Part shown: positions 14,794 through 33,696 of the stretch, in pieces
Layout of the letters: every line of letters begins with the position of its first letter
Position numbering within the stretch: position 1 is the first letter of the stretch
From: a virus
Reading direction: 5' to 3' (one strand)
DNA: 43,499 bases
IMG/VR virus record: IMGVR_UViG_3300021061_000010
Location: 1-43,499 of that record
Made by a program: the position numbers and the translations under genes
Notes under the pieces: generated by a model
The model's database searches: none
Told to the model about the DNA's origin: nothing
What the model saw: the letters and a program-made list of their open reading frames with translations, nothing else

Positions 14794-14799
14794 AGGCAT

Positions 14800-15012: not shown

Positions 15013-15042
15013 GTGCTCTGCTCACCACAAACTGACTTTCTC

Positions 15043-15156
15043 ATGTACGTAGGGCTCGCGCTCTGCGTCTTTATGGTGCTGCTGTATATCGGCTACTTCC
15101 TCGCTGAGCTACGAAAGCTCCCACAATACACGGATGAGGATCATCAGCCCGATTAG
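15043..15156 (+). CDS. Very small membrane protein of the lysis cassette
   Basis: Thirty-seven residues: one hydrophobic helix from the N-terminus to about residue 21 (MYVGLALCVFMVLLYIGYFL), then an acidic tail. It is the last + strand gene of the late operon before the minus-strand block. Function unknown; a holin regulator or spanin-like role would fit its place. Confidence 0.5.
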   Translation: MYVGLALCVFMVLLYIGYFLAELRKLPQYTDEDHQPD

Positions 15157-15169
15157 CCCCCACATGATC

Positions 15170-15322
15170 TTATCCGTGAGCTTCATGTGTTTTCTCTAAT
15201 GCGGCATCAATGGCCGCTATCTGCTTTTTTATTGTTTCATAGAGCGCAAGCTTCGGGGAAATGCCCTGGAGCTGAATGACCAGCTCGTGCCGCTGCACGT
15301 ATAAGCTGTCTCGAGTTTTCAT
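15170..15322 (-). CDS. Small helical protein (50 aa)
   Basis: Fifty residues (MKTRDSLYVQRHELVIQLQG... IDAALEKTHEAHG), helical with coiled-coil character. It begins five bases downstream, on the minus strand, of the tRNA-like element, whose end forms its upstream region. A longer reading frame exists but would run through the tRNA-like element and is less likely. Function unknown. Confidence 0.5.
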   Translation of the reverse strand: MKTRDSLYVQRHELVIQLQGISPKLALYETIKKQIAAIDAALEKTHEAHG

Positions 15323-15326
15323 TGAT

Positions 15327-15418
15327 GGACGGGCGAGGATTTGCACCTCGCAGAGTCGGAACCTAGAGGCTATATCGACCTGCCCTAAGCTTTGTGGCTC
15401 ACTATCCCACCGCCGTCC
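15327..15418 (-). tRNA. tRNA-like element, possibly degenerate
   Basis: Read on the minus strand, 92 bases show a six-pair acceptor stem (GGACGG with CCGTCC), a four-pair D-stem-like helix (GTGG/CCAC), and a perfect five-pair T stem (CGAGG/CCTCG) around a seven-base loop TGCAAAT with the correct spacing to the acceptor. I cannot find a convincing anticodon arm with U33. The T loop has G instead of U at position 55, and no CCA is encoded. It may be a decayed class II tRNA, an interrupted one, or a tRNA mimic. Confidence 0.3.
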
Positions 15419-15461
15419 AAAAAGTAGCTGGTTTAACCTCACAGCCGGGAGGTAGGAAACT

Positions 15462-15581
15462 TCAGGCGAAGCAGCGTACCAGCATCACGAGCGCGGCTGG
15501 CAGCAGGACGCACAGGGCAGCGACTTCCAAGGCATCAGCCTTTCGCCGCGCCATCTTGCCGATCGGGTACAACCTCCACAT
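15462..15581 (-). CDS. Very small membrane protein (39 aa)
   Basis: Thirty-nine residues: basic N-terminus (MWRLYPIGKMARRK) and one hydrophobic helix (about 20-37, VAALCVLLPAALVMLVRC). GGAGG lies about 9 bases upstream of ATG. It overlaps the zinc-ribbon gene upstream in another frame. Function unknown. Confidence 0.45.
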   Translation of the reverse strand: MWRLYPIGKMARRKADALEVAALCVLLPAALVMLVRCFA

Positions 15582-15705
15582 GTCTGAGGCCCTCCAATGA
15601 GCAGTGGACGCACTTGAACTTGTCGGGACGGGAGCCGACGCACCATTGTTCGCCAGCTCCCAGCCTGCGATCACACGTCTCGCAGTAGACCCGGAAGTTA
15701 TGCAC
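15535..15705 (-). CDS. Small zinc-ribbon protein
   Basis: Fifty-six residues from GTG 15705. Two CxxC knuckles, CETC (about 8-11) and CVHC (about 32-35), have zinc-ribbon spacing with basic residues between. The GTG overlaps the stop of the upstream zinc-ribbon gene, implying coupled translation. Likely binds nucleic acid or protein; specific role unknown. Confidence 0.5.
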   Translation of the reverse strand: MHNFRVYCETCDRRLGAGEQWCVGSRPDKFKCVHCSLEGLRHVEVVPDRQDGAAKG

Positions 15706-15871
15706 TGCGCTTCACGGGGTTGTGCTTATCGAAGCACTTCCGGCCGCAGAAGTGGCGCCCGAAGGTGTCTTGGTAGATCGCCTTCACCTCCTCCGCCGGT
15801 GGGTTGCACTGGCAGTGGAATGTGATTGTCTTCGCAATCACGGGCGAACGATCCAGATGAAACGTAGACAT
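15698..15871 (-). CDS. Small zinc-ribbon protein
   Basis: Fifty-seven residues with CQC near residue 20 and FCGRKCFDKH near residue 41, a treble-clef-like arrangement. It overlaps the 3' half of the upstream reading frame over about 146 bases. That either means a true overlap or that the upstream gene ends earlier or is frameshifted. Next downstream gene overlaps its stop. Confidence 0.5.
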   Translation of the reverse strand: MSTFHLDRSPVIAKTITFHCQCNPPAEEVKAIYQDTFGRHFCGRKCFDKHNPVKRSA

Positions 15872-16001
15872 TGACTTCCTCCTTGATTCGCTCGTAGCGG
15901 TTCAGCAGACACCTCAGGGAACAGCAGTGACCCGCTTCGAGCGTCAGTCGCCGGCAGCGGACTACCGTGCCTCCGCACTCGCAGCAGAAGATCGGACGCA
16001 T
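15726..16001 (-). CDS. Small cysteine-rich zinc-ribbon protein
   Basis: Up to 91 residues. The N-terminal 45 (MRPIFCCECGG, then GHCCSLRCLLNRYERIKEE) form a convincing zinc ribbon with CxxC and CxxxC knuckles. The rest is low-complexity and overlaps another zinc-ribbon gene, so the real product may be shorter or a -1/+1 frameshift may join the two. ATG overlaps the TAA of the upstream gene (TAATG), indicating a coupled mini-operon. Confidence 0.5.
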   Translation of the reverse strand: MRPIFCCECGGTVVRCRRLTLEAGHCCSLRCLLNRYERIKEEVNVYVSSGSFARDCEDNHIPLPVQPTGGGGEGDLPRHLRAPLLRPEVLR

Positions 16002-16153
16002 TAGTTCAGCCTCCGGCGCTTCCGCCGTTTGGCGTTGACCTTCTCGATCGTGCGGCAGTGTTTGTGTATGGCGCGGGCTTTCTCCGCGCTGTCAGCCAGA
16101 CGCATCCGGCGGACACACAGGCAGCAGAACTTCTCAAGTGGCAGTGTTTGCAT
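16001..16153 (-). CDS. Small basic Cys/His protein
   Basis: Fifty residues: FCCLC near the N-terminus, HKHC in the middle, and a very basic end (KRRKRRRLN). GGGAGG lies 7 bases before ATG. It is the first gene after the structured RNA region in the minus direction. Probably a nucleic-acid-binding mini-protein. Confidence 0.5.
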   Translation of the reverse strand: MQTLPLEKFCCLCVRRMRLADSAEKARAIHKHCRTIEKVNAKRRKRRRLN

Positions 16154-16291
16154 ACTCGCCTCCCTCTTCGCGGTGAGGCGCCGGTGCTTGTCGGTCCGTC
16201 ACGTTCGCGGACCCCGAGGCGTTAATGCCTATACCCACTAGGGGCTAGATTTAACAAGCAACCGCATCTCACAACGAGGGGGTTTCCTATG
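16154..16291 (-). other. Non-coding leader between structured RNA and zinc-ribbon genes
   Basis: No convincing gene. On the minus strand it contains a hairpin with arms GGTCCG/CGGACC around 9 bases (about 16194-16214) and the near-palindrome GGCATTAACGCC (about 16220). It may be the 3' part of the structured RNA or a 5' leader of the zinc-ribbon mini-operon. Confidence 0.5.
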
Positions 16292-16520
16292 GTGACGGGC
16301 TCGTGCTCCGGTCCACGGCGCTTACTTTCCTTGCGCCCTTAGCCGATAACCGCGGCGTGGGGGACCGTAGATCGCGGAGCAGGAGCCCATCACTGTAATG
16401 TCCCCAGCGCTCACACTCTCGATAGGCACGAGAGGCGAGACGCAATCAACCGGTTGGGCTGGTTGGGATTTCCGAACCGTGCTCATAGCACTGATTATCT
16501 ATGAGCGCTGGAGACATTAC
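16292..16520 (-). ncRNA. Candidate structured RNA with two stacked 19-bp stems
   Basis: Two domains lie back to back with one base between. Domain A is closed by arms 16395-16413 and 16502-16520 (19 bp, one non-Watson-Crick pair). Domain B is closed by arms 16292-16310 and 16375-16393 (19 bp, two non-Watson-Crick positions). Inside A are hairpins CTCTCG/CGAGAG (16416-16434) and GTGCT/AGCAC. Inside B are CGGTCC/GGACCG and GGCGC/GCGCC. In both closing stems a C-A mismatch on the + strand becomes a G-U pair on the minus strand, so the transcript is minus. No tRNA, RNase P, tmRNA or intron core is recognisable to me. Confidence 0.65.
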
Positions 16521-16525
16521 GTTGT

Positions 16526-16550
16526 AAAGAACAAGCTCGCCTCCCGAGCT
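16526..16550 (-). terminator. Rho-independent terminator (minus strand)
   Basis: On the minus strand AGCTCG, five-base loop, CGAGCT, then TTGTTCTTT. It lies after the 45-residue gene at 16597 and just before the structured RNA. A second hairpin (16553-16585, 12 pairs on the minus strand including one G-U) sits between the gene and this stem. Confidence 0.6.
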
Positions 16551-16596
16551 GAGATAAGGCGGCGGTACTCCCTCGCCACCTTATCCCAGCTAAGGA

Positions 16597-16734
16597 TTAC
16601 TTTGCCTTTGCGCGCTTGCGCTTGCTCCACCGAATCTGGTTCATCTTAATGAAATGGTCGGGATACTTGTTCTTAGTCGCCGTACCGCCCTTACTCCCTA
16701 TCGCCTTCAAATGCTTCCTAAGTGAACTTTCCAT
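16597..16734 (-). CDS. Small basic protein (45 aa)
   Basis: Forty-five residues, very basic: MESSLRKHLKAIGSKGG... IRWSKRKRAKAK. The GSKGG/ARW-KRxxA pattern is shared with the 43-residue protein at 26104 and suggests a nucleic-acid-binding helix pair. On the minus strand TATAAT (16741-16746), preceded by TGC as an extended -10, lies 6 bases before ATG, so it is probably leaderless. It is divergent from the gene at 16820. Confidence 0.65.
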   Translation of the reverse strand: MESSLRKHLKAIGSKGGTATKNKYPDHFIKMNQIRWSKRKRAKAK

Positions 16735-16819
16735 GAATGCATTATAGCATCGCGGTCGTACCGGCTTGGACTGACTTATCAACACCCCTTCTCTTCACTC
16801 CTAGCCGCTAGGATGTACT

Positions 16820-17050
16820 ATGAAGAAGTCGAGATTAATAACCCTATTTACTACTAACATGCACAAGATAAATGCAGACGGCATAGAGATGTACAGTTAC
16901 TACGAGAAGACTTCTCGCTGGGGCGCGTACCTCACGACGCTCGTCATGGCCACTACCGGAGCGATGTTCCTCGCTTGGCTTGGCCTTGAAGGTTATCAGT
17001 ACGTCCACGCTTTCGCGGACAACCTCTCCGTATGGCTGAATCTAAACTAG
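16820..17050 (+). CDS. Small single-TM protein (76 aa)
   Basis: Seventy-six residues with one membrane helix at about residues 35-56 (AYLTTLVMATTGAMFLAWLGL). TAGGAT lies 5 bases before ATG, again a leaderless-type start. First gene of the + strand early block, divergent from the minus-strand gene at 16734. Function unknown. Confidence 0.6.
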   Translation: MKKSRLITLFTTNMHKINADGIEMYSYYEKTSRWGAYLTTLVMATTGAMFLAWLGLEGYQYVHAFADNLSVWLNLN

Positions 17051-17187
17051 AGAGCACCATCGAAGCCTTCCACTACTACCGAGAAGAACAAATCTGGTGG
17101 CAGTGCAGGCGCATCCTTCGGGAGCTTCGATGGCATGGTTACGACGAGTTAGCAGATCATCTAGTTTCAACAGTCGAGTATGCGTAA
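17032..17187 (+). CDS. Small helical protein (51 aa)
   Basis: Fifty-one residues (MAESKLESTIEAFHYYREE... ADHLVSTVEYA), helical and Trp/Arg-rich in the middle. It overlaps the preceding gene by 19 bases and the nuclease gene by 8, as in a tightly coupled early operon. Function unknown. Confidence 0.5.
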   Translation: MAESKLESTIEAFHYYREEQIWWQCRRILRELRWHGYDELADHLVSTVEYA

Positions 17188-21195: not shown

Positions 21196-22071
21196 CTACC
21201 GCTTATCTTTAATGCCCAGTTCTTTCACGAGGTCAGTTAGAGCAGCAAGCGGCAGTTTCGGAGGTTTGGAGAAGTCATATGTCTCTGGCGTGAGTAATGA
21301 GACTATTGACATGAATTTTTCAGAACTCACCCCCTCCGCTAACAGCAAAAGTGTGTCCCCTCTTGCATAATAGTAAGCAGCTAATCGCAAATTATACCTA
21401 TACAATGGCATTAGAAGAGCTATTACAAACAGTATCACAAACATTGGTCCAAATCTATTAATATTTGTTTGAAGAAGTAAAAGTGTATCGCTAGCAGCAG
21501 CGGGCGCAGGAGGTTTATCGGGAACTTGCCGAACCCATTGAATTTCCAGCGAGCGTATTTCTTCACCTAACAGCCTAAGCGTGTGCAGAATTCGCCTTAG
21601 CTCCTCGATTTCGCGCACTTGATAGTGTAGAAAATTCTGGACCGCCAGCCACTCTTCATCATTCCACGCAACACTCGGATCGTTCATCACAGTACCTTCT
21701 AACGACGCACCCCGCTTGATTTTCTCTTTTATCCCTTGATTGACGTCACTTCGCAGTAGTGTCGCTTGCACCTCGGCCATTCGAGCAGCGGCGTCCGCTC
21801 TTAATCTGTCAAGATAGGCTTTGCGAGTTTGAATCTCCGTTGCGCGGAGATCAGTGGCTGCTAGTTCACCCGCGCGCTGGAAAACAATCACTCCAACTGC
21901 AAGTAAGCCCAATACCATCGCCAAAACCAACCAACTTTGTACTTTGAGAGCCCTCCCACGTCGAAAAAACAATTCCGCCAGCTCAACGAAAGTTTTACGC
22001 GAAATGTTTTCCGTTGTTGGTTGACTACCCCCAGGTTCTGCAGCCGGGCCGCTGGTCACTGTGGTGTCCAT
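21196..22071 (-). CDS. Two-TM coiled-coil membrane protein, minus strand
   Basis: A 291-residue protein: cytoplasmic N-terminus, TM at about 44-66 (SWLVLAMVLGLLAVGVIVF), a large helical periplasmic region (to about 200), TM at about 207-227 (FGPMFVILFVIALLMPLY), and a helical C-terminal cytoplasmic domain (RLAAYYYARGDTLLLLAEG). AT-richer than the flanking early genes. It overlaps the upstream secreted gene by 16 bases, forming a two-gene operon. Unknown family; an exclusion or sensor function is conceivable. Confidence 0.75.
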   Translation of the reverse strand: MDTTVTSGPAAEPGGSQPTTENISRKTFVELAELFFRRGRALKVQSWLVLAMVLGLLAVGVIVFQRAGELAATDLRATEIQTRKAYLDRLRADAAARMAEVQATLLRSDVNQGIKEKIKRGASLEGTVMNDPSVAWNDEEWLAVQNFLHYQVREIEELRRILHTLRLLGEEIRSLEIQWVRQVPDKPPAPAAASDTLLLLQTNINRFGPMFVILFVIALLMPLYRYNLRLAAYYYARGDTLLLLAEGVSSEKFMSIVSLLTPETYDFSKPPKLPLAALTDLVKELGIKDKR

Positions 22072-22488: not shown

Positions 22489-22737
22489 GAGACCCCGGAG
22501 AGACCCGAGATCCCGGTGACGCCCTGGTCACTTTGTTTCTTCTAGGAGATTTCCGGAGGCCAGATCGTAATCAAAATCCGGTGCCTTACCGCTTGGCGAC
22601 GCCCCACCATAGCTCATGGTGCTCGTAACTAACTGACAACGCTTAGGCTTCTTTTTGGTCTTGCCCCATACTGTCTCTGGAAACCACCGGGCACCACCGC
22701 CTTTCCTGAGACCCGAGCGAGACCCGAAAGGAGACCG
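22489..22737. other. attP: attP: tRNA-Gln 5'-half core with flanking arm-type repeats
   Basis: On the minus strand from 22606 down to about 22566 lies the 5' half of a tRNA-Gln(UUG): TGGGGCG acceptor strand, complete D arm, and CCGGA-TTTTGAT anticodon region, after which similarity stops. Five copies of GAGACC(C)G-like repeats flank this core: 22489, 22500 on one side and 22708, 22719, 22731 on the other. This is the layout of integrase core and arm sites, with the integrase gene 3 bases after the last repeat. The rest of 22335-22739 has no gene. Confidence 0.7.
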
Positions 22738-22739
22738 CA

Positions 22740-23864
22740 ATGCCTATTGTGACCCTCACGGACATGACCGTAAGAACGCTCAAGCCCGTGCAGGGCAAGC
22801 GGATAACGTACCTCGACAAGACACTCAAGGGGTTTGGCGTATTGGTCACGCCGAACGGCCACGCGTCCTACGTCCTCACCTTCGGTCCCAATCGCCAGCG
22901 CGTGAAGCTCGGCGACGTCGGCACGATCAAGTTGGCCGACGCTCGCACCGCTGCGCGCAACATCGCGGCACAGCGGCAGCTCGGCCAGTACGTGCCGACG
23001 CGTTCTCCGACCTATCAAGCCGCTATGGAAGACTATCTGGCGGAGCGGAAGCCGGATCTCAAGCCGCGCACCTACAAGGACTACGAGCGGCTCTTGAAGA
23101 GCTACGGCTTCGGGCTAGAGCGCATGGATGCAATCCTGCCGCACACCATCATCCAGAAGCTCAAGCCGCTCTCTCGCGGCGAGCGCAACCACGCGCATGT
23201 CGCGCTGAAGATCTTCTTTCGCTGGGCGTTCCGAAAGCATCTCATCGAACGCAACCCGTTCGAGCGGATGGATACCCCGAACAAGAGCAAGAAGCGGGCT
23301 CGAGTTCTGACCGACGCCGAGATCAAAGCCATTTGGAACGCAGCCACCGGCATGTTCGGGGACATCATCAAGCTCTGCCTGCTGCTTGGACAGAGGCGTA
23401 GCGAGATAAGTCACCTGAAGTGGGAATGGGTCACCGGCGACCTCATCACCCTGCCGCCGGAGATCACCAAGAACTCGCGAGAGCACACGTTTGTAGTCGG
23501 CCCGATGGCCCTCGCGATTATCAATGCCCAGCCGCGGCGCAACGATACCCCGTACATCTTCCCCGCACGCAAGCGCTGGCGGGACACGGCTACCGTCTAC
23601 AATGCCTGGAACAAGGACATGCCAAAGCTCCGCACGGCCTCACAGACAGTGGGATGGGTACCGCATGACTGCCGCCGTACGCTTCGCACCCGATGGAGTG
23701 AGCTGAAGATCGCTAGAGAGGTGGCGGAGAAGTACATCAATCACATCACCGGGGCGCAGAGCGACGTCGAGCAGATTTATGACAGATGGTCTTACCTTCC
23801 CGAGATGCGCGAGGCAGTACGACTTTGGGAGGAGCGCGTTTCCCAGCTCATTGCAGTAGGCTGA
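22740..23864 (+). CDS. int: Tyrosine recombinase, phage integrase
   Basis: A 374-residue integrase that would recombine attP with a tRNA-Gln attB. An N-terminal arm-binding domain (to about 90), a SAM-like core-binding domain (91-175) and a catalytic domain (185-374) are visible. Catalytic residues: R in GQRRSEIS (219 or 220), HDCRR (H309, R312), H335 in YINHITG and Y347 in QIYDRW. AAAGGAG lies 7 bases before ATG. The attP lies immediately upstream. The style (LTDxTVRTLKP, KLGDVGTIKLADAR) is common in proteobacterial elements. Confidence 0.9.
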   Translation: MPIVTLTDMTVRTLKPVQGKRITYLDKTLKGFGVLVTPNGHASYVLTFGPNRQRVKLGDVGTIKLADARTAARNIAAQRQLGQYVPTRSPTYQAAMEDYLAERKPDLKPRTYKDYERLLKSYGFGLERMDAILPHTIIQKLKPLSRGERNHAHVALKIFFRWAFRKHLIERNPFERMDTPNKSKKRARVLTDAEIKAIWNAATGMFGDIIKLCLLLGQRRSEISHLKWEWVTGDLITLPPEITKNSREHTFVVGPMALAIINAQPRRNDTPYIFPARKRWRDTATVYNAWNKDMPKLRTASQTVGWVPHDCRRTLRTRWSELKIAREVAEKYINHITGAQSDVEQIYDRWSYLPEMREAVRLWEERVSQLIAVG

Positions 23865-23932
23865 TCCCGCCCTTGAAGGGATTGGTATCAACTTGGGCAC
23901 TCGGCCGTGCGCCCGTATCGGGAGCACGCCTA

Positions 23933-24145
23933 ATGTCTGACGAGAGACTGATCGTGGATTGGAAGTGGATCAAGGCCATGGGTTGGCCCTTCAGCCGTTG
24001 GCACACGCTAGGTCGGATGGTTCCTGCTGGGAAGTTTCCACGTCCTCGGAAGTGGTCTCCTCACAGGGGCGGCCGGATAACGTGGCTGAAGGCTGAGGTG
24101 ATGCCCTACCTGATCGGCTTCAACCCGCCGCCTGCCGCAGCGTAG
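23933..24145 (+). CDS. AlpA/MerR-like excisionase
   Basis: Seventy residues (MSDERLIVDWKWIKAMGWPFSRWHTLGRMVPAGKFP...RITWLKAEVMPYL), a winged-helix excisionase pattern with the R-P-x-W wing and WLKAEV end helix. It would bend attL/attR DNA and direct excision, and may repress int. Sixty-eight bases after int and followed by a strong terminator, so int and xis form one unit. Confidence 0.75.
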   Translation: MSDERLIVDWKWIKAMGWPFSRWHTLGRMVPAGKFPRPRKWSPHRGGRITWLKAEVMPYLIGFNPPPAAA

Positions 24146-24163
24146 ACGGTTCTCTATCGGGTA

Positions 24164-24194
24164 GGGGCGCGGATTCCAACCCGCGCCCCTTTTT
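24164..24194 (+). terminator. Rho-independent terminator
   Basis: GGGGCGCGG, eight-base loop, CCGCGCCCC, then TTTTT. Ends the int-xis transcript. Confidence 0.9.
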
Positions 24195-24251
24195 AATTGT
24201 TCCCTGCGGGTTACACTGGTAACGGTACACAGTTCTCCGCAGGAGGTTAAC

Positions 24252-24674
24252 ATGGCGACGGAAGACCTGGGGCGCATCGTAAGCAAGGAGCGCGCCCGTC
24301 TCGTTAAGCTCAAACAGTCTCTCGCCGACAAGCGCAAGGCACTCGATGCCGAGATCGCCGAAGTAGAGAAGCAGATCACCGCAGCCGATGCGTACGCTTC
24401 CGCCCTCGGCGGGAGGGCTCGCAAGGCCAAGGCTGCCGGCGCACCTAAACAGCCTCGTGCCAAGCGCGCCTCAGGCGAGCCCACCTGGCGCGACCGCGTC
24501 CTCGACACCATCAAGGGGGGTAACGGCCTCAAGCGCGGTGAAATCCTCGCCGCCATGAGCATCGTCGAGAAGGAGAACAAGGGCGCCGCGCAGAACGTCA
24601 GCAACGCGCTCAACGCCCTCAAGAAGGCCGGCACCATCAAGCAGGAAGACGGCAAGTACACCGCAGCCGCTTAG
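24252..24674 (+). CDS. Coiled-coil plus winged-helix DNA-binding protein
   Basis: A 140-residue protein: N-terminal coiled coil (10-50, SKERARLVKLKQSLADKRK... EKQI), a basic Ala/Lys linker (55-75), and a winged-helix domain (76-138, WRDRVLDTIKGGNGLKRGEILAAM... NVSNALNALKKAGTIKQEDGKY). AGGAGG lies 5 bases before ATG. Flanked by two terminators, it is its own transcription unit. A histone-like or regulatory role in lysogeny is plausible. Confidence 0.6.
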   Translation: MATEDLGRIVSKERARLVKLKQSLADKRKALDAEIAEVEKQITAADAYASALGGRARKAKAAGAPKQPRAKRASGEPTWRDRVLDTIKGGNGLKRGEILAAMSIVEKENKGAAQNVSNALNALKKAGTIKQEDGKYTAAA

Positions 24675-24682
24675 ACGACACA

Positions 24683-24709
24683 GGGGAGGCATTTGACAGC
24701 CTCCCCTTT
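24683..24709 (+). terminator. Rho-independent terminator
   Basis: GGGGAGGC, eight-base loop, GCCTCCCC, then TTT and a T-rich tract. Ends the winged-helix gene. Confidence 0.85.
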
Positions 24710-24716
24710 CCATTTT

Positions 24717-24965
24717 CCTATGGGGATAATGATGCTTACCCTGTATCCCCATAGGCTCAGCTTTGCACATGGCCTAAAAGGCCAACAATTTCAACAGTTC
24801 CGCCACAGTCGTCCGGGGCTTTCGCCACCTGACCCAATAGCGTACACCTTGCCTTACCTCCTCCCTGCGGTCGTCGATCACAGACATCGGGCAAGCCCAC
24901 TTCACTTCGTTCGGGATACCCTATTGGGTCAGGTCGCTACTGCTCCCGACGACTGGGCGGTGACT
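24717..24965. other. Nested inverted-repeat region, possible origin or structured RNA
   Basis: No gene in 24675-25170. It holds (1) a perfect 12-bp inverted repeat CCTATGGGGATA / TATCCCCATAGG (24717-24728, 24744-24755); (2) TGGCCT-AAA-AGGCCA (24772-24786); (3) a 170-base nested structure: AGTT/GACT, CCGCC/GGCGG (24800-24804, 24956-24960), CAGTCGTC/GACGACTG (24806-24813, 24948-24955), GGGG/TCCC, and a perfect 14-bp ACCTGACCCAATAG / CTATTGGGTCAGGT (24827-24840, 24921-24934) with CTTGCC/GGCAAG inside. It precedes the plasmid-like replication genes, so an origin is as likely as an RNA. Confidence 0.6.
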
Positions 24966-25113
24966 CTTCTTAGCAGCGACAAATTTTGACAGTTTCTTCC
25001 CCACATTTCATGCGCGCCAAGCCCCAACCCTGACGAACTTCTTCCCACGCGACGCGCCTCAAGCCCACCCTGTTGACGGTTTACGGTTCCTGTTGTCTGT
25101 CGCTGTTCACCGC

Positions 25114-25141
25114 TTGCGCGATACTTGCCGGTAAGTATAAT
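25114..25141 (+). promoter_or_regulatory. Sigma70-like promoter of the replication module
   Basis: TTGCGC (25114-25119), 16 bases, TATAAT (25136-25141). The ATG is 30 bases downstream, leaving a short leader. Unlike late promoters it has conventional spacing. Confidence 0.65.
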
Positions 25142-25170
25142 TAGCTCATTACTCAATAACCGAAACCGAA

Positions 25171-25650
25171 ATGCCGAAAAACATTTCAGATTTTCTGCCG
25201 GCCACAACCATGGGCCGCGCAGTCGAAGGAGTACTTGTTACACCTTCAAAATTAGTAGCCACCGATACCTTCAAACTCATTGAGGTGAAGCACGAGAACC
25301 CCATTGAAAAGCCGGTAGTTCTCCGCCTCCCCAAAGGCATGAAGACGTTCGATGGGATTACCGCCACAGGAGAAACCGTCACACTCACGAAGAAAGGCGC
25401 CCTCTACCCTGCCGCTGACACCCTCGACCCAGACCAATATCCACGCTACGAGCAAGCGTTTCCCACGGAACAGCCACAGTTTCAGATCACCCTCTCACCC
25501 GTGCACCTCAAGGCTATTGCCACGGCGTACGAGAAGAGCAAGGCCGTACGGCTCTCATTCTACAGCGCTCGCAAGCCACTGCATTTCACAGATGGCACGC
25601 TCGGCCAAGAAGAGACCAAGCGCGCATTACTCATGCCTATCGTCGAATAA
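25171..25650 (+). CDS. Beta-clamp (DnaN)-like truncated protein
   Basis: A 159-residue protein. The C-terminal half (YPRYEQAFPTEQPQFQITLS, HLKAIATAYEKS, VRLSFYSARKPLHFTD, RALLMPIVE) follows the pattern of the last sliding-clamp domain, ending in the LMPI motif typical of DnaN. A normal clamp has three domains and about 370 residues; this has about one and a half. It could form a clamp from more subunits, act as a decoy for clamp-binding peptides, or have lost function. First gene of the replication operon. Confidence 0.55.
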   Translation: MPKNISDFLPATTMGRAVEGVLVTPSKLVATDTFKLIEVKHENPIEKPVVLRLPKGMKTFDGITATGETVTLTKKGALYPAADTLDPDQYPRYEQAFPTEQPQFQITLSPVHLKAIATAYEKSKAVRLSFYSARKPLHFTDGTLGQEETKRALLMPIVE

Positions 25651-25651
25651 T

Positions 25652-25849
25652 ATGACACCAGAAACGAAGTACTTTCTAGCTTGCAACCGGCGTCGCCTCG
25701 TCACCCTTTACGCCGACTACCTTGATGACATGGTTCAAAGCGAGCAGTTCCGCTTCATCGAAGATTTTCCGGAATGGGTTACTCGTGAGCACGAGCGTGC
25801 GCTTGAGGAGAAGGGCGAACAGGGCGAGAGCGGTGATTACGAGATTTAA
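25652..25849 (+). CDS. Small acidic protein (65 aa)
   Basis: Sixty-five residues (MTPETKYFLACNRRRLVTLYADYLDDMV... EWVTREHERALEEKGEQGESGDYEI), helical and acidic. One base after the clamp-like gene, so cotranscribed. Function unknown. Confidence 0.5.
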   Translation: MTPETKYFLACNRRRLVTLYADYLDDMVQSEQFRFIEDFPEWVTREHERALEEKGEQGESGDYEI

Positions 25850-25860
25850 AGCTACACGCT

Positions 25861-26040
25861 ATGGATTGGACACAAGACGCAGAGAAGCACATACACCAAG
25901 CGCTCGACAAGGCAATCGGCGCTTACCAGAACTATCAAGCTGGCAAAATTAGCCGCGCAGAGTTCAATCATGACCTCGACTTTATAGCGGCAGTCACAAC
26001 GCAGCAGATCGTAGAGGCATTACCTGAGGAAGCTGACTAG
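25861..26040 (+). CDS. Small helical protein (59 aa)
   Basis: Fifty-nine residues (MDWTQDAEKHIHQALDKAIGAYQNYQ... QQIVEALPEEAD), helical. Eleven bases after the preceding gene. Function unknown. Confidence 0.5.
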   Translation: MDWTQDAEKHIHQALDKAIGAYQNYQAGKISRAEFNHDLDFIAAVTTQQIVEALPEEAD

Positions 26041-26103
26041 CGCCCGCATCCCACCGCGCCTCACACTGAGGCGCTTTGGATTCTTACCCGCTAACACAGC
26101 GCC

Positions 26104-26235
26104 ATGGACATCAAAGACGTATCCCGCATGGGCGGCCTCGCCCGTGCCAAGAAGTTATCCAAAAAGCGGCGCAGTGAGATTGCAAAGCAGGCGATAGCCA
26201 CACGATGGGCGAAGCGCCGCAAAGCCGTTCGGTAG
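26104..26235 (+). CDS. Small basic protein (43 aa)
   Basis: Forty-three residues (MDIKDVSRMGGLARAKKLSKKRRSEIAKQ, ending ARWAKRRKAVR). It matches the pattern of small basic phage and plasmid proteins (GGxARAxxLSxxRRxEIAxxA..RWxKR) and resembles the 45-residue protein at 16597. Likely binds nucleic acid. Confidence 0.6.
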   Translation: MDIKDVSRMGGLARAKKLSKKRRSEIAKQAIATRWAKRRKAVR

Positions 26236-26341
26236 TACAATGAAGGCGGAGAGTACACGCGGGAAACCGCGTTCAACCGTCGTCCTCCGCTACCGACTGA
26301 CGTTGCACACGAGCGCGACCTCTCAGCACGGCTCGGAGGCC
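26236..26341 (+). promoter_or_regulatory. Promoter and structured leader of the VirD4-like gene
   Basis: TACAAT (26236-26241) within the 13-base string GTACAATGAAGGC, which also occurs at 14785 before a holin-like gene. Then GCGGAG/CTCCGC (26246-26251, 26285-26290) encloses ACGCGG-GAAA-CCGCGT, a GNRA-capped hairpin (26257-26272). A further CGAGC/GCTCG pair follows. GGAGG (about 26335) is 7 bases before the TTG start. Confidence 0.5.
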
Positions 26342-26346
26342 GACTG

Positions 26347-27648
26347 TTGCACGTGACCTACCCTATCGGACAAAGGACAACAGGTGATGTCCTTTTGCTA
26401 TCGGACAACGAGCGCCGCCGGCACATCTACCTCATCGGCAAGACCGGCACCGGCAAGAGTTCACTCCTGCACAACATGATGATGGCCGACTTCCATGCCG
26501 GCCGCGGTTTTGCCTTTCTCGATCCCCACGGTACTGGCGCGGAACAAATCATAAACGCGACGCCGACCACGCGTACCAACGATGTCCTTTACCTCGACCC
26601 CCTCGACCCTTCACACGTCGTAGGGTTTAACCCGCTCATCCGCGTCCCGCCGCTCGACCGTGCCGCACTTGCGGATAACATTGCGGCGCTCCTCAAGTAC
26701 ATCTGGGCCGATAGCTGGGGCGTGCGCCTCAACTACATCCTCACGAACGCCTTGCGCCTCTTACTGGAGAAGCGCGGCACCACGCTCGTGAACCTCTCGC
26801 GCGTCCTCATTGACGAGGAGTACCGCAAGCGGCTCCTCACCCACTGCACGGACGGCGCCATCACGACGTACTGGAAGACCGAGTTCATGAGCTACAGCCC
26901 GAGCTACCGCGCCGAGGCGATCGGCGCCGTTCAGAACAAGGTGGGGCAGTTTCAAAACAATCCCATTCTCCGCGCCGTCTTCGGCCAGGTCTCCGGGGCC
27001 ATCCACCCCTACGACATCATGGAGCACCGCCGCGTCCTCATCGCCGACCTCAGCAAGCGCATGGGCGAGGAGCCGTCGCGCATTCTAGGCTCTCTCCTCA
27101 CCACGGCCTTCTCCCAAGCCGCCGAGCGCCGCCGCACCATAGCCGAGGAGAAGCGTCAGGACTTCACGCTCTACCTCGACGAGTTCCAGTCCTTCACCTC
27201 AGAGAGCATGGGCACGATCCTCAGCGAAGCACGTAAGTGGCGCCTCAATCTCGTGCTCAGTCATCAATTCATGGACCAAATCCCCGAGAGCATCCAGCGC
27301 GCGGTGATCGGCAACTGCGGCACGCTGATCGTCTTTCGCGTGGGCTCGTTCGACACGCCCATTCTCGGCAAGGAGCTGGGATTACCAAATCCCAGCACGC
27401 TCTCCGACACCTCCAACTTCCAGGCGTGGGTGAAGCACCTCGCCTCGGACACCCCGAGCGAGGCGCTGCCCGTGACGATGCTGCCGCCGCAGGTGCCGCC
27501 GGAGCCCCGGAGGGGTGCCGTAGTGGCCCGGAGCCGCGCGCGGCACGCCAAGAAGCGGGACGACATCGAGCGCACCCTCGCGCCGCAGCTCGCCTACCAG
27601 CTGAAGAAGCCAAAACCTAAGAACAAGGCCACATCCCGCGAATGGTAG
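26347..27648 (+). CDS. VirD4/TraG-HerA-type DNA-translocating ATPase (soluble)
   Basis: A 433-residue ATPase from TTG 26347 (GGAGG 7 bases upstream). Walker A is GKTGTGKSS (31-39) and Walker B is TLYLDEFQSF (near 278); a conserved DPHGTG follows Walker A, and GNCGTLIVFRVG resembles sensor strands of the type IV coupling/TraG-HerA family. No membrane helix is visible. These hexameric motors push DNA through membranes or pores. Two such motors in a tailed phage is unusual; terminase is separate. Basic Lys-rich tail at the C-terminus. Confidence 0.8.
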   Translation: MHVTYPIGQRTTGDVLLLSDNERRRHIYLIGKTGTGKSSLLHNMMMADFHAGRGFAFLDPHGTGAEQIINATPTTRTNDVLYLDPLDPSHVVGFNPLIRVPPLDRAALADNIAALLKYIWADSWGVRLNYILTNALRLLLEKRGTTLVNLSRVLIDEEYRKRLLTHCTDGAITTYWKTEFMSYSPSYRAEAIGAVQNKVGQFQNNPILRAVFGQVSGAIHPYDIMEHRRVLIADLSKRMGEEPSRILGSLLTTAFSQAAERRRTIAEEKRQDFTLYLDEFQSFTSESMGTILSEARKWRLNLVLSHQFMDQIPESIQRAVIGNCGTLIVFRVGSFDTPILGKELGLPNPSTLSDTSNFQAWVKHLASDTPSEALPVTMLPPQVPPEPRRGAVVARSRARHAKKRDDIERTLAPQLAYQLKKPKPKNKATSREW

Positions 27649-27719: not shown

Positions 27720-28079
27720 ATGCGCGTGTCGATTAACCACAGCGAGAAGCAAACCGGCGTCTTCAGGAAGACGACGCACTATATCGTCACCGTCAAGGTG
27801 GATTTCTCCGAGGAGGAGAAAGCGATCATCAAGCAGCGCGACCTCAAATCCACGGTGATCATGACGCGCAGCACACCCTCTCACATCAATACCAGCATCG
27901 ACGACATCTGGGACCTCACCATCTCCAAGCTCCTCAGCGGCCCCGACGATTACGGTCTGGAGACGCTCGCCAAGGCCAAGGACTATGAGGAGGTACTCAT
28001 CGATAGTCTCAAGGAGCTGAAGGATTACATTTCAGCGAACGAGGAGGTCGAGGAGAAGTCAAAGAGCTTCGAGCTGTAG
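27720..28079 (+). CDS. Small protein between the two DNA-transfer ATPases (119 aa)
   Basis: A 119-residue protein (MRVSINHSEKQTGVFRKTTHYIVTVKVDFSEEEKAIIKQRDLKS...). GGGAGGAG lies 5 bases before ATG. N-terminal strands and C-terminal acidic helices. Its stop overlaps the GTG of the second ATPase by one base. Possibly an accessory or adaptor for the ATPases; no family recognised. Confidence 0.55.
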   Translation: MRVSINHSEKQTGVFRKTTHYIVTVKVDFSEEEKAIIKQRDLKSTVIMTRSTPSHINTSIDDIWDLTISKLLSGPDDYGLETLAKAKDYEEVLIDSLKELKDYISANEEVEEKSKSFEL

Positions 28080-30163
28080 TGGCCGAGCGCGAGAACACCC
28101 CGTTTTGGGAGGGGCTGATCACGATTGTCGGCGTGCTGAGTTTGCCGCTGGTGATCGTGTTCACTCCCTTCTGGGGTATGTGGGCGGCGATCCGCACCTA
28201 CCTCGACAGCGAGGGGCCGCAGGAGCGCAAAGCCAAGGAACAGACGCACGCGCTGTACCAGCGTGCTCTCGCGCTCTCGCAGGCCGGCGCGTTCCCCGAC
28301 AAGGTGAAGTTCGGCCGCGCCATCGTCGAGAAGCTCCCCGAGCAGTATGCGCCGTACTTCGATCCCATCGTCTACACGCTGCTGGACCTCTACGACGCCG
28401 AGGTTCCGCACGGCGATGTCATCCCGCCACCACCGCCGCAGTGCGACAGCATCGAGGGCGGCCGGTATCGCGACTTCCTCAACCAGTACATCTACAAGCA
28501 CAGCAACCAGAGCCACTCCCGCATTGCCGTGGACGTCATCGTGCGTTCCTTCCGCGCATTCATCGAGGCGCTGCCCGAACCGCAGGAAGACGACGAGGCG
28601 CTGTTCAGCACGCCCATCACCACGCTCATACGTCCGCACGAACTTATCGAGGACCTGCTGCGGCCCTACTTCGAGCCCCAGGCTGACGAACTCTTCAAGG
28701 ATCTCCGTCGCACGCTGGAGCGCAATGTGCAGTCAGCGTCCGGCGCCGGCCGCACCAAGAATGCGCGTCTCATTCCGCCGTCCGAATACGATGGCGATGA
28801 CGTCGTTCATCAATATCTGCGCAACACGCCCTTTGAGCAGCTTTTCAACATCAAAATTCCGCTGGCGATCCCGGCGAAAAAATGGTTCGAGCACGCGGTG
28901 ATCTGGGGCACGCCCGGTAAGGGCAAGACCACCCTCATTCAGGCGCTCATCGCCAACTTCCTGCCGGCGGTCGCACGCGGCGAGGCGTCGATCTTCCTCA
29001 TGGACAGTCAGGGCAGCGCGCCGAAGTCGCTCATCCACTCCGTCTCCAACCTCAAGGAATTTGCGCCCGGCGGATCGCTGCATGGACGCTTGATCTACGT
29101 CGAGCCCGACCCCACCAACCCCATCGCGATGAATCCGTTCCTCATGGGGCGTGACCGCGACAAGCAGTACACCGCGCGCGACCGTGAGCAGCTCCACAAT
29201 CAGACGATCGAGTTGCTTGCCTACATCTTCTCCGCGCAGGGGGAGAACGCCGCGTTCACCAACAACCAGGCCATCCTCTATCGCTGGACGATTGAGCTGC
29301 TGCTTCTGCTGCCGAACCCCAACCTGACCACGTTTCTCAAGATCATGACCGAGGGTGTGGAGCCGTACAAAGCCGAGATCGCGCAGCTCTCCGAGGCTGG
29401 CCGCACCTTCTTCGAGAAGCAGTTCAATCAGGGCCAGTTCAAGGACCGCCGCCCCGAGGTGGCCGCGCGTATCTCCGGCATCCTCCAGAACAAGGCGCTC
29501 GCCGCGATGTTTGACGCCGCGACGTGCAAGCTCGACCTCTTCATTGAGCTGTCAAAGGGCCGCGTCATCATCGTGGACACGGACAAGAACTACCTCGGTG
29601 ACGACCGCTGCACGCTGTACGGCCGCATCATGCTCGCGCTCCTCTTGCGCGCCTCGCAGGAGCGCACGGCCACATCCGACCGGAAACCTGTGTACTGCTT
29701 CATTGACGAGGCCGCGGACTACCTGAAGGCCGATCCGAAGTTCACCTTCCTGATTGACCAAGCGCGCAAAAGCAACGTCGCGATGATCTGCGCCAGCCAG
29801 CGCACCGGCCACATCCAGAGCCCGAACGTGCTCGACGCGCTCTCCGGCGTCTCCATCCACTTCGTGAGCACGAACAACGACAGCGACGCTCATAAGTTCG
29901 CGTCGATCATGCACACCAGCGCCGATTTCCTGCGGAACCAGCCGGAATACCACTTCGCCCTGACCGTGGACCGCTTCATCAACCGCGCCGTCTCCGTGCG
30001 CGTGCCTCTCACCCTGAGTACGCGCCAGTGGATGACGCACGGCGAGTTCGATGAGATTAAGCGCGACATGCACGCGCGCTACTCCGACCAGCCGCCCTCA
30101 CCCTCTACCCAGCCGCCGCCTAATTCACCGACCACCCCGCCGGCAACGCCGAGCACGTGGTGA
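28079..30163 (+). CDS. Membrane-anchored VirD4/TraD-like coupling ATPase
   Basis: A 694-residue protein from GTG. N-terminal membrane segment(s) at about 11-38 (EGLITIVGVLSLPLVIVFTPFWGMWAAI), a helical region, then Walker A GTPGKGKTT (about 277-285), Walker B CFIDEAADYL (about 538-547), and ASQRTGHIQSPNVLDALSGV near the C-terminal domain. A proline/serine-rich tail ends it. Membrane anchoring plus the motor is the architecture of conjugative coupling proteins that feed relaxase-bound DNA to a type IV secretion channel. It is adjacent to a relaxation-type replication protein, supporting a transfer or plasmid-maintenance role. Confidence 0.8.
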   Translation: MAERENTPFWEGLITIVGVLSLPLVIVFTPFWGMWAAIRTYLDSEGPQERKAKEQTHALYQRALALSQAGAFPDKVKFGRAIVEKLPEQYAPYFDPIVYTLLDLYDAEVPHGDVIPPPPPQCDSIEGGRYRDFLNQYIYKHSNQSHSRIAVDVIVRSFRAFIEALPEPQEDDEALFSTPITTLIRPHELIEDLLRPYFEPQADELFKDLRRTLERNVQSASGAGRTKNARLIPPSEYDGDDVVHQYLRNTPFEQLFNIKIPLAIPAKKWFEHAVIWGTPGKGKTTLIQALIANFLPAVARGEASIFLMDSQGSAPKSLIHSVSNLKEFAPGGSLHGRLIYVEPDPTNPIAMNPFLMGRDRDKQYTARDREQLHNQTIELLAYIFSAQGENAAFTNNQAILYRWTIELLLLLPNPNLTTFLKIMTEGVEPYKAEIAQLSEAGRTFFEKQFNQGQFKDRRPEVAARISGILQNKALAAMFDAATCKLDLFIELSKGRVIIVDTDKNYLGDDRCTLYGRIMLALLLRASQERTATSDRKPVYCFIDEAADYLKADPKFTFLIDQARKSNVAMICASQRTGHIQSPNVLDALSGVSIHFVSTNNDSDAHKFASIMHTSADFLRNQPEYHFALTVDRFINRAVSVRVPLTLSTRQWMTHGEFDEIKRDMHARYSDQPPSPSTQPPPNSPTTPPATPSTW

Positions 30164-30275: not shown

Positions 30276-31304
30276 ATGCAGCGCGACACCCTCAACAGAA
30301 GGAAGCGATTCCACAAGCTCCCCGGCAAGACGAAGCACACCGGCGAGCGCCGGCAGCTCGAGATCACCGCGCGTGACGTCGCAGTCTTCAAGATCCTCGC
30401 GCGCTACCGCTACCTGCCCATCGACTTTATCTGGCGGCTGCTCCCCGCCGACATCCGCGGCACCTGCTACAAGCGCTTTCAGGAGCGCATGGGCGAGCTG
30501 CACCACCAGGACTACCTCAACCGTCCTCGTGCTCAGCGCCGTTCGGAAAACGCCAAATCCCGGCCGTTAATCTACGAACTCGGCTCGCAGGGCAAGGCCG
30601 AGTGCCGTGCGCGCGGCATCGAGATCTATCCCCGCCTCTCTGACCGGCAGCAATTTCCCCACGACCTCATGGCCTGCATGGTCATGGCCTACATCGAGAT
30701 CGCCTGCGCGGAGACCCAGGGCTTACAGCTCGTGACGTGGGAGGACATCTTAGAGCACCCCGCCACACCCGAAGTTCTCCGCGCGTCGAAGCATCCGCTC
30801 TCAATTCCCAAGATTCCCATCCGGCTCAACGGCACGAGCGTCTCCGCCAAGCGCGATAGTCGCCCCTTTGGTATCCGGGGCTATGGCGATGGAGGCAACC
30901 ACTACGCCTTCTGCTCGACCGGCATTGAAGCCGACTGTTCCAATGAGCCGCTTCGTCCGTCGGACATTACTGCCCGCGCCAACATCGAGGCGAAGCTCCG
31001 CGGCTACCTCTACATCGAGGAGGAGAAGGTCTACCAGACCCACTTCGGCTTTCCGAACAACCTCGACTTCTTCATCACTACGAGCAAGCGTCGTATGCGC
31101 AACATCATGCAGCTCTTTTCTGATCTCACGGGAGGTAAGGGCGCTGATCACGTCCTGTTTGCTTACCTACCTAACATGAACTCTGTCGAGACCGCGCCGG
31201 AGCCCAACGCCGAATTCTTCCTCCAGAACTTTGAGCGCGTGGGCCATCCGCCGTTCAACATCATCAACGAGCTGCACGCCGCACTACAAAAAGGGGCCGC
31301 ATAG
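30276..31304 (+). CDS. Replication-relaxation family protein
   Basis: A 342-residue protein. The N-terminal winged helix (ITARDVAVFKILARYRYLPIDFIWRLLP, about 29-57, then CYKRFQERMGELHHQDYLNRP) is typical of the replication-relaxation (plasmid replication/relaxase accessory) family. The remainder is alpha/beta with HDLMACMV (near 130). Such proteins start or assist plasmid replication or mobilisation and often neighbour TraG-like ATPases. It probably acts at an origin, perhaps in 24717-24965. Confidence 0.7.
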   Translation: MQRDTLNRRKRFHKLPGKTKHTGERRQLEITARDVAVFKILARYRYLPIDFIWRLLPADIRGTCYKRFQERMGELHHQDYLNRPRAQRRSENAKSRPLIYELGSQGKAECRARGIEIYPRLSDRQQFPHDLMACMVMAYIEIACAETQGLQLVTWEDILEHPATPEVLRASKHPLSIPKIPIRLNGTSVSAKRDSRPFGIRGYGDGGNHYAFCSTGIEADCSNEPLRPSDITARANIEAKLRGYLYIEEEKVYQTHFGFPNNLDFFITTSKRRMRNIMQLFSDLTGGKGADHVLFAYLPNMNSVETAPEPNAEFFLQNFERVGHPPFNIINELHAALQKGAA

Positions 31305-31566: not shown

Positions 31567-32424
31567 GTGACTACGACCTACAAGCTGAACTACGCGGAGC
31601 TGCGCCAGCAGATTCCGTTTGAGCAGGTATTTACTTACCTCGGTCTCGATAAGATCGTGCCGAGGATCAAGGCAAATCAGCACAAGGGCACCTGTCCCTT
31701 CTGCAAGAGCGCCAAATCCTTTGTCGCTACGTACGATGGCGGGGAAGACAAGACCGGGCGCTTCAACTGCTTCGCCTGCAAGTCCGGCGGCGATTGCATC
31801 GAACTCGTCAACCGCATGCGCGGCAACCCACGGCGCGACAGCCGCGGGGTCTATCAGGCCGCTGTGGAGCTTCGGGAACGGTTTCTAACAGTTACTCCGC
31901 CCTCGGGTACTGTTGGAACAGTTACCAAGGAACCGGGAACTGTTAGTACTGTTACCCGGTCCGACGACGGCGGGGCGCTTCTGGCCAAGCTTCAGAAGGC
32001 TCTGGAAGGCGTGGAGCCGGGGCATCCCGCCGTCGTTTCCCTCGGGCTTTCTGAGGAAACCTGCCGGCATTTTGGCGCTGGCTACAAGAACACCGGAGTG
32101 TCGGCGAAACGCCTGCTTATTCCGGTGCACGATCGCTCAGGCACCTTGGTTGCCATTTGCGGCCGGGCGGTCAGCGAGGATCAGCAGCCCAAGTTCCTGT
32201 TCCACCACTTCGATCCGGGGCAGACGATCTTCAATGCCCACCGGCTCAAGGAGGGGCAGGATCTCTACATCTGCCACGATCCCCTCGACGTGATGCTGAG
32301 CTACGAGAACGACCCCAGCCTCAACGTCGTGGCGGTCTTCAACGACGGACTCACGTCCGCGCAACACGACCTGATTTCCGGGCTCATCATGTCGCTGAAG
32401 TGCGAACTCTCGTTCTCCCTGTAG
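31567..32424 (+). CDS. CHC2 zinc-finger primase-like protein
   Basis: A 285-residue protein from GTG (GGAGG 6 bases upstream). The N-terminal CHC2-type zinc finger is clear: CPFC (43, 46) and CFAC (68, 71) with GRFNCFACKSGGD. Residues about 175-285 resemble the DnaG TOPRIM region (LLIPVHDRSGTLVAICGR, then LYICHDPLDVML), but the catalytic glutamate of the VEGYxD motif is replaced (ICHDPLD) and the DxD part is missing. At less than half of DnaG it may recruit or regulate a helicase/primase instead of synthesising primers. Confidence 0.7.
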   Translation: MTTTYKLNYAELRQQIPFEQVFTYLGLDKIVPRIKANQHKGTCPFCKSAKSFVATYDGGEDKTGRFNCFACKSGGDCIELVNRMRGNPRRDSRGVYQAAVELRERFLTVTPPSGTVGTVTKEPGTVSTVTRSDDGGALLAKLQKALEGVEPGHPAVVSLGLSEETCRHFGAGYKNTGVSAKRLLIPVHDRSGTLVAICGRAVSEDQQPKFLFHHFDPGQTIFNAHRLKEGQDLYICHDPLDVMLSYENDPSLNVVAVFNDGLTSAQHDLISGLIMSLKCELSFSL

Positions 32425-32979: not shown

Positions 32980-33696
32980 ATGACGCTTATGCTACATGCC
33001 GGCGCCAAGGCCATCGATTACGACGGTTTGCGCGGGCTAGAGACGCCACCGGGCACCCCTACTCACGTTCCCATCCCGCATCACCTGCTCGTGGACATCA
33101 CCCGCAACATGCTCCAGTTCTATGGGCATGAGATTGTGGATGAACACTTCGGTGTGACGGAGGATCAAAATCGATTCTTCTGCTGCCTAACCCTCAAAAG
33201 CGCCTACGGCAGTTACGGAGACATGGTCGGGTTGCGCAACAGCCACGACAAGACCCTGCCGATCGGCTTGGCCTTCGGTTCCCGCGTCTTCGTCTGCGAC
33301 AACACCGCCTTCATTGCGGATCATGTCGTTCGCAGGAAGCACAGCAAACGGGCGCGTCACGAACTCCCATCCATCATTTCGGAGATCGTGGAGCCCCTGC
33401 AATCCCAGCGGGAAGCTCAGCATCGCAAGCTGACCCTGTACCAGAACACCCCGCTCCGGATCGAGCACGCGGATCATGCGGTGATCGAGATGTACCGCCG
33501 CGGTGTGCTCGGCATTACCAAGATCGACGACGTGCTCAAGGCGTACGAGGACCCACCCCACGACTGGGGCGACCACACGGCCTGGCGCATGTTCAACGCC
33601 GCGACGTTCGCCCTCACCGGCAAGGTCGCGGAAGATCCCCGTCTCACCAAGACGCTTCATGAGGTGATTGATGCGGTGTGCAAACCTACGACGTAA
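32980..33696 (+). CDS. DUF932-like phage/plasmid protein
   Basis: A 238-residue protein with the DUF932-type pattern: NSHDKTLPIGLAFGSRVFVCDN in the middle and a helical C-terminus (VIEMYRRGVLGITKIDDVLKAY, HTAWRMFNAATFALTGK). Members occur on plasmids and phages; function unsettled, possibly DNA-binding or replication-linked. AAGGAG lies 7 bases before ATG. It is regulated by the inverted repeat upstream. Confidence 0.65.
   Translation: MTLMLHAGAKAIDYDGLRGLETPPGTPTHVPIPHHLLVDITRNMLQFYGHEIVDEHFGVTEDQNRFFCCLTLKSAYGSYGDMVGLRNSHDKTLPIGLAFGSRVFVCDNTAFIADHVVRRKHSKRARHELPSIISEIVEPLQSQREAQHRKLTLYQNTPLRIEHADHAVIEMYRRGVLGITKIDDVLKAYEDPPHDWGDHTAWRMFNAATFALTGKVAEDPRLTKTLHEVIDAVCKPTT

Follow-up and report, generated by a model that had tools for sequence, protein, structure and literature searches.

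How replication starts is often unknown for integrating phages in which neither an initiator nor a helicase can be recognised. The window analysed here, i.e. the whole stretch of 43,499 bases constituting an IMG/VR virus record, raises this question at a single site: a gap between the integrase gene and the early genes holds nested inverted repeats, which a preliminary description had read either as a replication or transfer origin or as a structured RNA. We analysed the build of this site, the elements carrying it and the function that accounts best for both.

The gap and its nested hairpin

The window encodes tail tube, tape measure, portal, capsid, protease, terminase and integrase proteins; because capsid, portal, terminase, tail and integrase genes are all present, it is by its gene content a temperate tailed phage and no plasmid. 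The gap is bounded by the end of an ORF at 24674 and the start of the clamp-like gene at 25171. To its left lie the integrase gene, an excisionase-like gene and one further ORF, to its right the early cluster encoding a clamp-like protein, two VirD4/TraD-like ATPases, a PF13814 (Replic_Relax) protein and a primase-like protein (Table 1). ORFs of 92-99 aa traverse the gap without any support. The genes had been recognised correctly in the preliminary description (clamp-like, VirD4-like, replication-relaxation), but the plasmid-like nature read from them does not extend to the element itself, a tailed temperate phage.

Table 1. Features in and around the gap, with positions in the window.
Feature	Position	Strand	Evidence or remark
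Tyrosine integrase gene	22740..23864	+	phrog_1 integrase, E 2.4e-49; PF13356, PF00589; just upstream of the gap
Excisionase (AlpA)-like small gene	23933..24145	+	position and similarity to L144/L149 genes
Likely intrinsic terminator of the upstream gene	24682..24707	+	inverted repeat with perfect 9-bp arms, then T-rich
12-bp perfect inverted repeat	24717..24755	.	CCTGTAT at 24740-24746
6-bp palindrome with AAA loop	24770..24784	.	
Nested DNA hairpin, proposed nick/origin site	24800..24960	+	model R1 match, fold z, relatives
Lower stem, 5' arm	24800..24813	+	5 + 8 bp, one bulged A
GGC-TTTC-GCC element, 5' side of internal loop	24817..24826	+	sequence
Upper stem, 5' arm, 14 bp perfect	24827..24840	+	
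Apical loop, 80 nt, variable among relatives	24841..24920	+	
Upper stem, 3' arm	24921..24934	+	
Asymmetric internal loop, 3' side	24935..24947	+	
Lower stem, 3' arm	24948..24960	+	pairs with 24800..24813
Candidate -10 box of the early operon, TATAAT	25136..25141	+	by eye; downstream of the hairpin
Clamp-like gene	25171..25650	+	phrog_947 processivity factor, partial, E 4.5e-6
VirD4/TraD-like ATPase lacking an N-terminal domain	26347..27648	+	PF10412 E 1.7e-6, PF12696
Second coupling-protein-like ATPase	28079..30163	+	PF01580/PF10412 weak, phrog_5156
PF13814 Replic_Relax protein, proposed MOBC-like relaxase	30276..31304	+	PF13814 above cut-off
DnaG-type primase-like protein	31567..32424	+	phrog_47 DNA primase E 1.2e-24; PF08275/PF01807 slightly under cut-off

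The excisionase-like protein gives no family match of its own; it is 33-39% identical to the small genes at the same place in the related loci L144 and L149, and its counterpart in L148 matches the excisionase family phrog_66 (E 1.5e-6). By hydropathy, the first ATPase, with its Walker A motif at residue 31, has no hydrophobic segment and the second has one at its N terminus. No other replication initiator or helicase was matched among the scanned ORFs of the window. Between the replication genes and the terminase gene sits a DUF932 protein (32980-33693) with counterparts of 47-60% identity in L089, L090, L005 and L004. Elsewhere the phage is densely coding, apart from about 2.4 kb (14794-17179) without a forward ORF of more than 83 aa, and amid otherwise plus-strand genes two ORFs run on the minus strand (467-1399 and 21196-22071), the latter having no match in Pfam or PHROGs.

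All repeats listed in the preliminary description were recovered: the perfect 12-bp inverted repeat (24717-24728 / 24744-24755), the palindrome TGGCCT-AAA-AGGCCA, and the nested structure with arms of 5 + 8 and 14 bp and a single-base bulge, the lower stem of which consists of an outer 5 bp (24800-24804 / 24956-24960), the bulged A24805 and an inner 8 bp (24806-24813 / 24948-24955). Perfect inverted repeats with arms of at least 12 bp and a loop of at most 150 nt occur twice in the 43.5-kb window, both inside the gap, compared to a mean of 0.32 in 50 dinucleotide-preserving shuffles. Folding, proposed as a check for the 170-nt nested structure, gave a fold more stable than that of 200 out of 200 shuffles: the RNA fold of 24785-24980 reaches a z of -6.82 on the + strand and -6.75 on the - strand, the DNA fold of 24700-24980 a z of -6.96, with 0/200 shuffles equally stable in each case. 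A G+C-skew signal, also suggested as a sign of an origin, was sought at the site and an inflection is absent; we discarded skew as an origin mark, as it is negative over most of the window and explained by codon use with C-rich third positions.

The 12-bp inverted repeat is probably a protein-binding site. Its sequence is not kept in the relatives described below; in L166 and L090, different inverted repeats (of 11 and 9 bp, respectively) lie 23-34 nt 5' of the hairpin. By eye, the sequence CCTGTAT (CTGTAT in L148) recurs about 35-55 nt 5' of the hairpin in the window, L089, L005, L090, L148 and L165, and it may possibly be a -10 region or a binding site.

Relatives of the hairpin and compensatory changes

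Searches with the gap DNA in phages and plasmids returned no relatives, the coupling ATPase and the clamp as protein queries and a pattern of the exact arms returned no matches, and 17 viral records searched with the clamp and the gap DNA yielded nothing useful. The terminase led to related phages and prophages: L089 from Parerythrobacter lacustris, L090 from a Sphingomonadaceae MAG, L091 from Gammaproteobacteria LSUCC0112, and viral contigs, L005 among them. Scanning for folds revealed long hairpins 5' of the coupling-ATPase gene in L089, L091 and L005, and a paired pattern located that of L090 just beyond its locus. A 17-base pattern found 15 viral loci, four of which form the hairpin (L142, identical to L005, as well as L144, L148 and L149); the other 11 were judged from their folds to be chance matches. 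With a covariance model two more members emerged, L165 and L166, whose two genomes belong to the same class as the host of L089.

The same two-stem hairpin is thus present in nine related phages or prophages, ten members including the window, and its arms, the persistence of which in relatives had been named as a check, are conserved in all nine. The phage covariance model, R1, scores the ten hairpins at 77-148 bits, eight of them being members of the model itself, including that of the window (103 bits). Applied more widely, R1 matched three times in 385 genomes from the class of G018 (one hit being a model member) and once, in a model member, in 369 genomes from that of G020; a search of 67 sources gave eight matches, all model members.

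The hairpin points toward the early genes in 10/10 members. By similarity search a coupling ATPase follows downstream in seven of the ten; the sequences of L148 and L166 end before the position of this gene, and in L165 its start was read by eye. A PF13814-type gene is known in eight of the ten elements: its score exceeds the Pfam cut-off in four (the window, L089, L091, L148) and lies below it in L005, and in L090, L144 and L149 the gene is recognised by similarity; L165 runs off its contig, and the L166 genome carries a PF13814-type gene on another contig. The PF13814 protein of L091 had no match in phages by tblastn.

The first long gene 3' of the hairpin is itself conserved (41-58% identity) among L090, L089, L005, L144, L148, L149 and L166; its product in L090 (1418-2464) has no match in Pfam or PHROGs, and the window has the clamp-like gene at that place. 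By eye, several hairpins (L089, L090, L091, L165, L166) share AWAGGAC-type half sites in their apical loops, and GTCCTWWAGGAC-like palindromes with such half sites lie downstream of the hairpins of L089 and L090.

All ten phage hairpins share one build: a lower stem the 5' arm of which begins with CCGC and is followed by GGC-N(4-6)-GCC, an asymmetric internal loop, an upper stem with GACC/GGTC and an apical loop of variable length. Compensatory changes, which the preliminary description had suggested looking for, are abundant. In a model-fitted alignment of the ten, which leans toward the structure, 93.6% of the paired cells can pair, 16 of 32 pairs are altered on both sides (0/500 shuffles as many), and the covariation score is 0.420 compared to a shuffled mean of 0.108 (0/500 as high); sliding the partner columns by 1-3 abolishes the covariation. 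A MAFFT alignment of eight members likewise yields two-sided changes in 16/32 pairs. Within the upper stem, one-sided changes of the G-C to G-U type never preserve a pair, and in the alignment of ten one outermost-loop pair has a single U-G cell.

Strong folding and covariation would also be expected of a structured RNA on the + strand, either a leader or a separate non-coding RNA controlling the early genes, and CCTGTAT upstream of several hairpins, seen by eye, could serve as its -10 region. The base pairs point in the other direction: among pairs spanning more than 50 nt in the ten hairpins G-U accounts for 11/401 on the + strand and 13/405 on the - strand, versus 398/3821 in 240 random windows folded alike and 5/123 in six tRNAs of the same loci, the random windows and the six tRNAs together being a weak control. 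Rfam 15 gave no match up to E 1 for 22500-27500. TATAAT-like sequences, read by eye, lie between the hairpin and the first gene in the window, L091 and L005, and the early mRNA therefore need not contain the hairpin. As the stems vary yet keep pairing almost without G-T, the comparison of sequences favours a DNA element, and the RNA reading of the preliminary description, with G-U nearly absent on either strand and no Rfam match, finds no support and appears very improbable.

The PF13814 protein and MOBC plasmid loci

The PF13814 protein of the window scores 30.5 bits against a Pfam cut-off of 25.3. Its structure prediction, based on seven sequences (pLDDT 76.8, pTM 0.78), has a predicted N-terminal MarR-type winged helix at residues 29-114 (best Z 9.5, 76 residues, rmsd 2.3) and a predicted C-terminal alpha/beta part, whose best Foldseek matches, all weak, are restriction nucleases (FokI, E 3.3e-3, and AspBHI) and Shedu; outside the winged helix the VIA-align rows of the model cover little. 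TraX reportedly also has a MarR-type winged helix at its N terminus, and its catalytic residues are said to be D, E-x-E, K, R and Y. Compared to these residues the window protein keeps E-x-(D/E) but not the K and Y positions, and it is 16% identical to the protein of pAM373. PF13814 is equated with the MobC relaxase superfamily in Table 1 of one report (PMC5357655) and is in use as a relaxase profile in another (PMC11104534), and MOBC relaxases are described as containing a PD-(D/E)XK-like nuclease domain (PMC5714925, PMC8152469). We propose the PF13814 protein to be a MOBC-like relaxase, as suggested by its profile match and its modelled fold. MOBC initiators, like those of the MOBH family, are described as little known (PMC5714925).

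The plasmid pAM373 is assigned to MOBC by PLSDB, its replication-relaxation protein scores 27.1 bits to PF13814, and a relationship between its relaxase and pAD1 TraX has been described (PMC7117660). In a scan of the retrieved pAM373 sequence with 250-nt windows, no fold was stronger (z -6.7) than one located between the gene of the coupling protein and that of the relaxase. Its lower stem of 18 bp is followed by an asymmetric internal loop containing GGCTTTCTCCGCC; the upper stem, 24 bp long, includes CCTGACC and carries an apical loop. Direct repeats precede the structure. oriT2 of pAD1 reportedly has a large inverted repeat, with nic next to short direct repeats, an array of which is attributed to Francia et al. 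2013; the oriT regions of both pAD1 and pAM373 are cited as having inverted repeats (PMC6414798).

Five further plasmid loci, picked among 40 of 282 matching records to span 42-61% identity, have their strongest fold just 5' of the relaxase gene and with the same build, so that 6/6 enterococcal plasmid loci with a PF13814-type relaxase have such a hairpin as their strongest fold, placed between the genes for the coupling protein and the relaxase. PLSDB types two of the five as MOBC and three as non-mobilizable, one record being without annotation, and the hairpins of L174 and L175 are nearly identical. GGC-N-GCC after the lower stem, present in all ten phages, is found in 4/6 plasmids, and GACC in the upper stem, likewise in all phages, in 6/6 plasmids, an agreement noticed post hoc and among plasmids that are themselves interrelated. 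In the plasmid hairpins G-U makes up 0/205 pairs on the gene strand and 23/253 on the other strand.

Other comparisons separate the two groups. At E <= 10 model R1 does not recover a single one of the six plasmid hairpins and so gives no evidence that the phage and plasmid sites share a common descent; aligned with hhalign, the phage relaxases and that of pAM373 reach a probability of 0.1, which provides no direct link. The hairpin lies 5.3 kb from the relaxase gene in the window versus 0.1-0.6 kb in the plasmids. 7-mers repeated at least three times occur upstream of the hairpin in 5/6 plasmids; the 120 nt upstream of the window hairpin hold no repeated 7-mer, and among the other nine phages one 7-mer is repeated three times in L090 and some twice in L089, L144 and L149. 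The Sulfitobacter plasmid NZ_CP081110 has no nested hairpin in the 24.9 of 136 kb covered, nor does one occur in a Microcystis phage that carries a comparable gene pair. Because R1, hhalign, the direct repeats and these two hairpin-less elements disagree, we liken the phage hairpin in its working to MOBC transfer origins without classing it among them. In the Sulfitobacter plasmid, typed as non-mobilizable by PLSDB, the coupling-protein and replication-relaxation genes are adjacent (L168, 9853-12879).

The plasmid loci also bear on two other readings of the site. A recombination or packaging site (attP, cos or pac) would fit the integrase gene less than 1 kb away and the L091 hairpin, which lies about 460 bp inside from a tRNA gene, read by eye, at the prophage end. 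An excisionase-like gene separates the L091 hairpin from that tRNA end, the terminase gene of the window is 10 kb away and the same build recurs in MOBC plasmids lacking an integrase context, all of which make this function hardly credible. Long imperfect hairpins of similar size are known as single-strand origins, and here the hairpin on the displaced strand would act as a single-strand origin or ssDNA promoter starting the complementary strand, the nick being placed elsewhere. Such sso/ssi sites are described (PMC5714925), and the fixed orientation and Watson-Crick pairing of the phage hairpins agree with them. The same build in MOBC plasmids, however, adjoins the relaxase gene, where an oriT is expected. 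We consider this function improbable.

Proposed role and comparison with known systems

Our data support a model according to which the hairpin works like a MOBC transfer origin, i.e. as a cis-acting DNA nick site that most likely starts phage DNA synthesis and possibly transfer as well; we assign this model a probability of roughly two in three. The earlier reading as a replication or transfer origin is supported by the build, by the setting among relaxase and coupling genes and by the similar hairpins in MOBC plasmids, nicking itself being inferred. The PF13814 relaxase together with a coupling-type ATPase would bind the hairpin, comparable to MobB assisting relaxation in CloDF13, and the relaxase would introduce a single-strand nick in the internal loop or close to it. 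From the nick, the free 3' end would prime unidirectional displacement synthesis of the rolling-circle type, and the displaced strand would refold into the hairpin, allowing it to be recognised again for closure. The model lends itself to direct testing, as the site is conserved and well bounded, spans about 160 bp and lies close to a candidate nicking enzyme.

The site might instead be a transfer origin only, the excised prophage being mobilized via a resident type IV secretion system in the manner of CloDF13 and the hairpin having no role in replication. An own coupling protein plus a MOBC-family relaxase is the gene pair of MOBC1 mobilizable plasmids (PMC7431656), a conjugally transferable prophage, Phi1207.3, has been published (PMC4260502), and N-terminal hydrophobic segments, as expected for transfer, are retained by the coupling proteins of the window, L091 and L144, which counts against a preference for replication. 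The coupling proteins of L089, L090 and L005, in contrast, are without a hydrophobic N-terminal segment, and the module opens an early cluster with primase-like and clamp-like genes in a phage in which no other initiator was matched. For these reasons we prefer replication to transfer and regard an origin for transfer only as rather unlikely. Vegetative phage replication is accordingly a somewhat likelier use of the nick site than conjugative mobilization, and a single nick could serve both.

More tentatively, a lineage of tailed temperate phages of Proteobacteria may have taken over a MOBC conjugation module, comprising the oriT-like hairpin, relaxase and coupling ATPases, for DNA replication, with a relaxase of the restriction-nuclease type starting a rolling circle and some members perhaps being mobilizable. 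If true, one and the same prophage could travel as a virion and as a transferred strand. In open-licence PMC papers, covered by titles and the starts of abstracts, we found no description of this hairpin or of a phage MOBC origin.

Four known systems resemble the phage site in part. Rolling-circle plasmid single-strand origins share with it a long, imperfect and oriented hairpin outside genes; they are not known to adjoin a relaxase gene as a rule. Temperate tailed Bacillus phages, the Tyroviruses, carry a type IV secretion protein (gp17) and a replication-relaxation protein (gp18), a pair called plasmid-like by the authors (PMC9703825). They are likened here by description, have other hosts, and the passages describing the pair mention neither a hairpin nor an origin (PMC9703825). 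The MOBC1 module of CloDF13 (MobB and MobC) likewise combines an own coupling protein with a MOBC-family relaxase; CloDF13 needs the secretion channel of a helper, and its coupling protein MobB also acts in relaxation (PMC7431656). CloDF13 is a small plasmid and no phage and is likened by its mobilization genes.

The closest likeness is to the oriT of pAM373 and to that of the pAD1 oriT2 type, the large nested inverted repeat of which is found in the phages too. Phage and pAM373-type hairpins share a lower stem of about 17-22 bp, an asymmetric internal loop with GGC-N-GCC on its 5' side, an upper stem with GACC/GGTC, a variable apical loop, stems that are Watson-Crick paired on the gene strand, and nearby genes for a coupling protein and a PF13814 relaxase, which in the window belong to the same early cluster. 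They differ in that the phage hairpin is carried by tailed temperate phages of Proteobacteria, in the sequences of stems and loops, resulting in no plasmid match of the phage covariance model, and in the direct repeats upstream of the plasmid hairpins, which the window lacks, its relaxase gene being 5 kb off. The hairpin links tailed phages to plasmid MOBC transfer systems and raises the possibility of prophages also moving by conjugation.
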